In this document: piece by piece, positions 60,206 to 60,586 of the stretch
Layout: each line of letters opens with the position of its first letter
Position numbering within the stretch: the first letter of the stretch is position 1
NCBI GenBank assembly: GCA_964006375.1
Contig: OZ023267.1
Location: forward strand, 24,238,739-24,302,738
DNA length: 64,000 nt
Reading direction: 5' to 3'
DNA from: Tillus elongatus
Lineage: Eukaryota; Arthropoda; Insecta; Coleoptera; Cleridae
Translations under genes and position numbers: made by a program
Notes under the pieces: model-generated
Seen by the model: the letters and a program-made list of their open reading frames with translations, nothing else
What the model was told of the DNA's origin: nothing
Databases searched by the model: none

Positions 60206-60580
60206 CTACTGTTTAAGTCTTTTATTTAAAAATTTTAAACATAAGTGACCACAATTATAAGTATTATACTTTTGATATACATCATGATTATACAATATAG
60301 TACAGTTTTTCAGATAATACAACAGTTCAGTTGGCGGCTTCAAGTTTCCATATGAGTCAAAGTACACGGCCGTGTCACCACGTTTCTTAACTGCAACCCA
60401 ATGACTACCTGGCTCTTTGTTGGTTTGCAAATTCATGATAAATGATTCATTCTTGCGTGATCCATTCGATGGTAAAGTATCTCGCATGTATACACCTCTA
60501 AAATATGGAATTTTCATTTTACCAGCAAATTTCACAAGATCTATATTTGTTAGAGGTCTTGCTGGTAAACACTTTACACG
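60206..60580 (-). CDS. Adenain-like maturation cysteine protease, probably made by -1 frameshifting
   Basis: The frame is open from a stop at about 60591 to 60206 (124 codons from the slippery site) with no ATG before about 60517, which would remove conserved sequence. It contains IPYFRGVYMRD, GSHWVAV (catalytic His, codon 60403-60401), VYFDSYG (Asp, about 60358) and QKYNTYNCGHLCLKFL (Gln and catalytic Cys, codon 60253-60251), the Ulp1/adenain order H-D-Q-C. In Mavericks this enzyme cleaves virion precursors. Only an unlikely GTG start would allow independent translation. The frame is in -1 register with the upstream PLA2 gene at A_AAA_AAC. Confidence 0.8.
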   Translation of the reverse strand, partial: RVKCLPARPLTNIDLVKFAGKMKIPYFRGVYMRDTLPSNGSRKNESFIMNLQTNKEPGSHWVAVKKRGDTAVYFDSYGNLKPPTELLYYLKNCTILYNHDVYQKYNTYNCGHLCLKFLNKRLKQ

Positions 60581-60586
60581 TTTTTT
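60518..60586 (-). promoter_or_regulatory. Putative programmed -1 ribosomal frameshift signal
   Basis: The slippery heptamer A_AAA_AAC (60586-60580) is in the zero frame of the PLA2 gene (codons AAA AAC), followed by GTG TAA. A 10-nt spacer (60579-60570) leads to a perfect 11-bp inverted repeat TTTACCAGCAA (60569-60559) / TTGCTGGTAAA (60528-60518) with a 30-nt loop. A shift of -1 enters the protease frame exactly. Confidence 0.7.

Follow-up and report, generated by a model that had tools for sequence, protein, structure and literature searches.

Programmed -1 ribosomal frameshifting into a protease is characteristic of retroviruses, and the gag-pro sites of mouse mammary tumour virus (MMTV) and human T-cell leukaemia virus (HTLV) use the slippery heptamer A_AAA_AAC. 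In adenoviruses, the membrane-active internal protein pVI is tied to the protease via a C-terminal activating peptide. Here we analysed a 64,000-nucleotide (nt) stretch of the genome of the beetle Tillus elongatus (contig OZ023267.1, positions 24,238,739 to 24,302,738; hereafter the window), in which part of a Maverick/Polinton-like element lies. In this element, a gene for a PLA2-domain protein is followed, in the -1 frame, by an adenain-like cysteine protease. We conclude, with a probability of roughly 0.8, that the end of the PLA2 gene is a site of programmed -1 ribosomal frameshifting, which would make a minor PLA2-protease fusion in the manner of gag-pro. This supports the interpretation given in an earlier note on this DNA, made from the sequence alone; the slipping of ribosomes, the low ratio of fusion to PLA2 protein and the purpose of protease dosing are what we infer from the evidence below.

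Related arrangements have been predicted in adintoviruses, which Starrett and colleagues, according to PMC11071296, define by a PolB with an OTU-like domain and a reciprocal Hexon match. The available part of this 2024 preprint reports -1 frameshifts predicted by KnotInFrame for some Pentons of adintoviruses, together with a comparable hypothetical Hexon-Adenain ('Hexain') frameshift, with no site conservation given. For the Sf Mavericks, the available part of PMC5803895 treats CAP (PLA2) and PRO as separate open reading frames (ORFs) with no frameshift between them. The PLA2-protease junction is not mentioned in the available parts of PMC3671162, PMC4642659, PMC12567637 and PMC8363768. This partial body of literature holds no account of frameshifting at that junction, and the arrangement described here may be new.

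Results

A slippery heptamer lies in the overlap of two open frames

The features of the junction are as follows, in window coordinates; the heptamer, stop codon, first ATG and extent of the PLA2 ORF were read from the sequence itself.

60577..61386, minus strand: PLA2-domain protein, 270 residues, zero frame (PF08398, E value 1.2e-11)
61386-60574, minus strand: PLA2 ORF including its stop
60586-60580, minus strand: slippery heptamer A_AAA_AAC in the PLA2 frame, conserved in eight lineages
60576-60574, minus strand: PLA2 stop TAA, the second codon past the heptamer
60574..60589, minus strand: 16-nt overlap of both open frames, the sole place where a change from the zero to the -1 frame yields a fusion
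60206..60589, minus strand: adenain-like cysteine protease, -1 frame, stop to stop (fold and profile matches)
60518..60547, minus strand: codons of the first helix of the modelled protease, residues 14-23 counted from the heptamer, all upstream of the first ATG
60517-60515, minus strand: first ATG of the protease frame
60518..60569, minus strand: 12-bp stem of 11 Watson-Crick pairs and a terminal G-U, with a 28-nt loop and a 10-nt spacer (fold -14.6 kcal/mol)

In the zero frame the PLA2 gene ends CCA AAA AAC GTG TAA. The -1 reading, AAA AAA CGT GTA AAG TGT TTA CCA..., is open through to the end of the protease. Because the protease frame has a stop immediately upstream, at 60592-60590, the two-frame overlap is limited to 16 nt, of which the heptamer occupies seven. 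The first ATG of the protease frame comes only after the conserved LPARPLTNIDLVKFAGK. The earlier note had pointed to a zero-frame heptamer, a stop two codons past it and a -1 frame that enters a protease ORF with no ATG before its conserved part, and all three observations were borne out.

The junction has the zero-frame X_XXY_YYZ pattern expected of -1 frameshift signals. Such sites are rare here: across six ORFs within or close to the element, any X_XXY_YYZ occurred in the zero frame at 11 of 1854 codon positions, and A_AAA_AAN at 3 of 1854, the junction site among them. Given this rarity and the conservation described below, the junction heptamer is more than a chance occurrence.

We propose that most ribosomes would end at the TAA and make PLA2 protein alone. 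A minority would slip back one base on A_AAA_AAC, so that zero-frame AAA AAC is re-read as AAA AAA, and would continue into the protease to give a less abundant PLA2-protease fusion. By analogy with retroviruses and adenovirus pVI, the PLA2 part would bring the protease, in a small and fixed amount, into particles as they assemble; there the enzyme could free itself and then process virion proteins. In clade A, to which the window belongs, the stem 10 nt downstream may raise the efficiency of slipping.

The site is conserved across lineages of one genome

The 1.72-Gb genome contains many copies, and 148 of the 150 nearest scored copies share the same 127-residue protease open frame. The remaining two (L088 and L092), which we read directly, also have the protease in -1 with the heptamer. 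A fused PLA2-protease open frame, judged from open-frame length, was found in none of the 150. These copies are 97-100% identical to the window protease, which, in a genome with at least eight Maverick protease lineages, suggests recent amplification.

Using searches with divergent proteases, we grouped copies by protease core into eight lineages, A (window), B, C, D, H, L, M and N. Junctions were sought at a non-random set of loci, comprising the 30 nearest copies, the 30 best of a second search, 60 picked for differing or odd open frames, and the window. They were readable in 118 of 121 (L075, L110 and L118 were not found by motif), and the frame relation was set by motif, with -1 tried before fused and fused before other, and the first match taken. 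This gave 97 junctions in -1, 12 fused in frame and 9 other.

All 97 of the -1 junctions have a zero-frame A_AAA_AA with C, T or A as the next base. The earlier note had proposed comparing the junction in related elements; heptamer and frame proved to be kept across all eight lineages (97/118 junctions), with the slippery step 0-2 codons ahead of the PLA2 stop and the protease in -1. The step is A_AAA_AAC in six lineages and ends in AAT or AAA in two. Representative junctions read AAA AAC TTT TAA (B), AAA AAC TTG TAA (C), AAA AAT TGC CTG TAG (D), AAA AAC TAC CGA TAA (H), AAA AAC TTC CGA TAA (L), AAA AAA TGC CAA TAG (M) and AAA AAC TTC TAA (N). Lineage M reads AAA AAA AAA, in which the amino acid has changed and the slippery step is retained. 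The -1 relation held in 51/57 junctions of A, 14/15 of B, 16/16 of C, 5/5 of H and 2/2 of L (together 88/95). The product of the codon-choice fractions (AAA, AAC and NNA) over seven lineages was 5e-5, a rough figure with fractions taken from six ORFs of A, B and C.

Lineages B and M, as well as the clade-A copy L080, have an ATG in the linker between heptamer and protease core; it is absent from the other clade-A sequences read and from C, D, H, L and N. The overlapping -1 frame thus lacks a start of its own in the window and not in B, M or L080. In L080, zero-frame AAC ATG TGA overlies a -1-frame ATG, so that a possible start for the protease overlaps the stop.

The copies that the motif test called fused differ in A-run or T/A-run length (L065, L066, L070, L078, L114 and L071; L067-L069, L108, L109 and L116), and are compatible with real fusion, replication slippage or homopolymer assembly error.

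Database relatives keep the Lys-Asn ending

The nucleotide evidence comes from this one genome and the cross-species evidence from proteins; searches for DNA-level relatives in viral and genome contig sets gave nothing useful, with L031 and L032 lacking a relative of the junction. The PLA2 protein has 2302 database relatives at an E value of 1e-3 (among 7986 scored). In the best 120 of these 2302, 118 end in Lys-Asn plus 0, 1 or 2 residues. Directly before Lys-Asn stands a residue with an NNA codon in 118/118, and 22% of nearby residues are without one; as the relatives are not independent, no p-value is given. KKKFFR and KKKKFH, the endings of the two exceptions, are Lys runs still compatible with A_AAA_AAR.

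The protease relatives were counted in the best 120 of 425, with the core located in 86. Lys-Lys lies upstream of the LP core in 25 of the 27 relatives that have at least six upstream residues. It stands exactly four residues before the core in 18 of the 27, and 14 of those 18 then have a residue with a CNN codon. Among the 120, 23 are annotated as beginning inside the conserved N-terminal part.

Some relatives fuse both domains in one ORF

With a genome copy that is naturally in frame as query, the top database matches carry both domains in a single protein, and 38 of the 292 proteins gathered in this analysis have PLA2 followed by protease. Named fused proteins include those of beetles, ants, Trichogramma and Lucilia; all named PLA2 relatives and fused proteins are insect or insect-endosymbiont records. 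Ant-type fusions, grouped by similarity (P0257-P0259, P0265-P0272, P0275 and P0279), have Lys-Lys-Asn at the joint in 10/13, possibly as a relic of the slippery site or through its use in reverse.

We lean, with some reserve, towards a broader history. Gag-Pro-like protease dosing would have arisen independently in double-stranded DNA (dsDNA) Mavericks, and -1 frameshifting at the PLA2 end would be general and long conserved in the PLA2-bearing group. In some lineages, such as the ant type, it would have been replaced by a one-ORF fusion that mostly keeps the Lys-Lys-Asn relic, perhaps reversed to release PLA2 alone.

The protease is adenain-like and probably needs codons upstream of its ATG

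An AlphaFold2 model of the protease, built from 63 sequences, has a mean confidence (pLDDT) of 91.6. Its top fold matches are adenovirus proteinases, the best being 1nln, the adenovirus 2 proteinase (E value 2.3e-7), and a profile match to adenain 1avp (E value 9e-5) aligns from adenain residue 9. His62, Gln105 and Cys112 are invariant in the 63 sequences, with Asp77 at 90% or more, and these residues align with adenain; fold and catalytic His, Asp/Glu, Gln and Cys are thus those of peptidase C5. In Pfam, the window protease itself matches C48, and C5 weakly matches 34/63 relatives. In the model the first ATG is residue 24, just past the first helix, which indicates that the protease probably needs codons upstream of it.

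The downstream stem is clade-specific

The earlier note had described a perfect 11-bp stem starting 10 nt downstream of the heptamer. Such a stem is present, extended to 12 bp by the G-U pair (arms 60569-60558 and 60529-60518, minus strand), and is kept in clade A; it does not extend to the lineages in general. Across 25 distinct clade-A sequences, all retain at least 11 of the 12 pairs, with mispairs in 4/300 cells (one at the terminal pair) and several G-U variants. Synonymous-site conservation across the stem was unconvincing in eight clade-A sequences. Compared with shuffled sequences, the 74 nt from just past the stop gave z -2.3 (4/200 shuffles as good), and a fixed 60 nt gave z -2.8 (3/300). 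Fixed 60-nt folds of lineage representatives gave z -2.8 for A, -1.6 for H and from -1.0 to 1.3 for B, C, D, L, M and N, with the M site placed one base late. A best-window scan of 11 sequences gave -3.5 to -5.2 for seven clade-A sequences, -2.7 for H, -1.4 for C and nothing for B and D. That scan takes the best of up to 16 windows per sequence, which inflates z, and we therefore prefer the fixed windows.

A candidate pseudoknot between loop and downstream sequence, ACCUCUAA with UUAGAGGU, was spotted by eye and may follow from the coded residues.

Weighing the explanations

Several results weigh against programmed frameshifting, and many of them concern the stem. Its 10-nt spacer is long compared with the usual 5-9 nt between heptamer and stimulatory structure. 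No compensatory double changes occur among the 25 distinct clade-A sequences, the window fold over 100 nt is unremarkable (z -0.7, 65/300 shuffles as good), and the best 170-nt fold pairs the stem bases otherwise (z -1.3, 23/200 shuffles). A stable fold near the site is absent from six of the eight lineage representatives (B, C, D, L, M and N) and weak in H. As its arms code for conserved residues, the stem may partly be a by-product, and it is at best a clade-specific stimulator; in the sequences compared, the conserved signal is the heptamer. Beyond the stem, 21/118 junctions are not in -1, and lineages D (5/12), M (3/7) and N (1/4) have -1 in only 9/23, with long A-runs and many loci picked for odd frames. 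In addition, 59 of the 86 core-located protease relatives have their first residue in the short linker or at the core, where a start of their own is possible, a count biased by the requirement of gene callers for a start codon.

The A-run itself raises the prospect of transcriptional slippage, in which the polymerase adds or drops an A so that part of the mRNA has PLA2 and protease in one frame. Runs are 6-7 A long in A, B, C, H and L and at least 8 A long in D, M and N, where run length is most variable, and genome copies with one extra A are fused in frame. Slippage would explain the fusion. It needs no phase, yet the step is A_AAA_AAN in 97/97 of the -1 junctions, and it leaves the NNA residue before Lys-Asn in 118/118 relatives unexplained. 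Six A, the run in A, B and C, is also short for polymerase slippage, and we consider this explanation unlikely. Separate synthesis of the protease, with ribosomes reinitiating at, or scanning leakily to, an ATG close to the PLA2 stop, is less likely still. The linker ATG in B, M and L080 and the relatives that start in the linker or core suggest that it may contribute there, and in such relatives frameshifting need not be the only route to the protease. The other lineages and clade-A sequences have no such ATG, the window's first ATG comes after the modelled first helix, and reinitiation explains neither the conserved heptamer nor the fused homologues.

Splicing that joins both frames seems very improbable. 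Some fused NCBI models may be spliced (such as P0250, which is without the tail), but the GT past the heptamer is not retained in other lineages (AACTTT, AACGAA and AACTTC), and for 17/38 fused proteins the only sources are lgn/ena/jgi contigs, taken here as unspliced gene calls; we rejected it on these grounds. We likewise rejected decay or assembly error, by which the frame change would be an accident of the window copy. Run length does vary among D, M and N copies, but the same open frame in nearly all of the nearest copies, and the recurrence of the arrangement in other lineages and database relatives, make such an accident hardly credible. Programmed -1 frameshifting would account jointly for the heptamer and its phase, for the stop and the lack of an ATG, and for both the Lys-Asn rule and the fused relatives.

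Neighbouring genes and element identity

The following genes adjoin the junction.

59413..60225, minus strand: neighbouring ORF, penton-like by position only (no Pfam family above cut-off)
58109..59413, minus strand: double jelly-roll major capsid protein (PF21738, E value 4.6e-60)
61460..62161, plus strand: A32-like packaging ATPase (PF04665, E value 2.5e-9)

On the double jelly-roll capsid, A32-like ATPase and adenain-like protease only, we assign the element as Maverick/Polinton-like. The PLA2 protein is a putative membrane-attacking particle protein. Its Gly/Ala-rich residues 188-216 (60739-60825, minus strand) have a weak match to core protein X of adenoviruses (PF05829, E value 0.61), as do P0245 and P0241 (E values 0.0027 and 0.032), all below the curated cut-off. 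Near the element lies an ORF with a KilA-N domain (55181-55660, plus strand; PF04383, E value 5.6e-13). A tandem array at 47000-51385, in a scan started at 47000, has about 46 copies of a 96-bp unit with long stretches open in one frame.

Discussion

If our reading is true, eukaryotic dsDNA virus-like elements arrived at protease dosing by frameshifting through convergent evolution. Particles would then be predicted to carry PLA2-protease as a defined minority component, so that it could be tested directly whether Mavericks form virions, and how. The reading would also bear on annotation, in view of the 23 of 120 protease relatives whose annotated starts fall within the conserved N-terminal part.

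The 'Hexain' case, as given in the available part of PMC11071296, resembles this locus in coming from related viruses and in having a predicted -1 frameshift with adenain in the second frame. The upstream gene is Hexon or Penton there and PLA2 here. The earlier note knew of no frameshift described for Maverick or adintovirus proteases; in the parts of the literature available this holds for the PLA2-protease junction, and the hypothetical Hexon-Adenain case qualifies it for adintoviruses at large. The Sf Mavericks, according to the part of PMC5803895 available, are likewise insect Mavericks with a PLA2 protein and an adenain-like PRO.

The link between a membrane-active internal protein and the protease also recalls adenovirus pVI. 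In adenovirus, however, pVI and the protease are two genes, whereas we propose a covalent fusion by frameshift. The likeness to retroviral gag-pro lies in the heptamer, its phase, a virion protein with a nearby stop and a protease in -1 without its own start. Unlike gag-pro, the junction belongs to a dsDNA element, the protease is an adenain-type cysteine protease, a PLA2 protein takes the place of Gag and the stem is not conserved; the resemblance is one of convergence, not of family membership.
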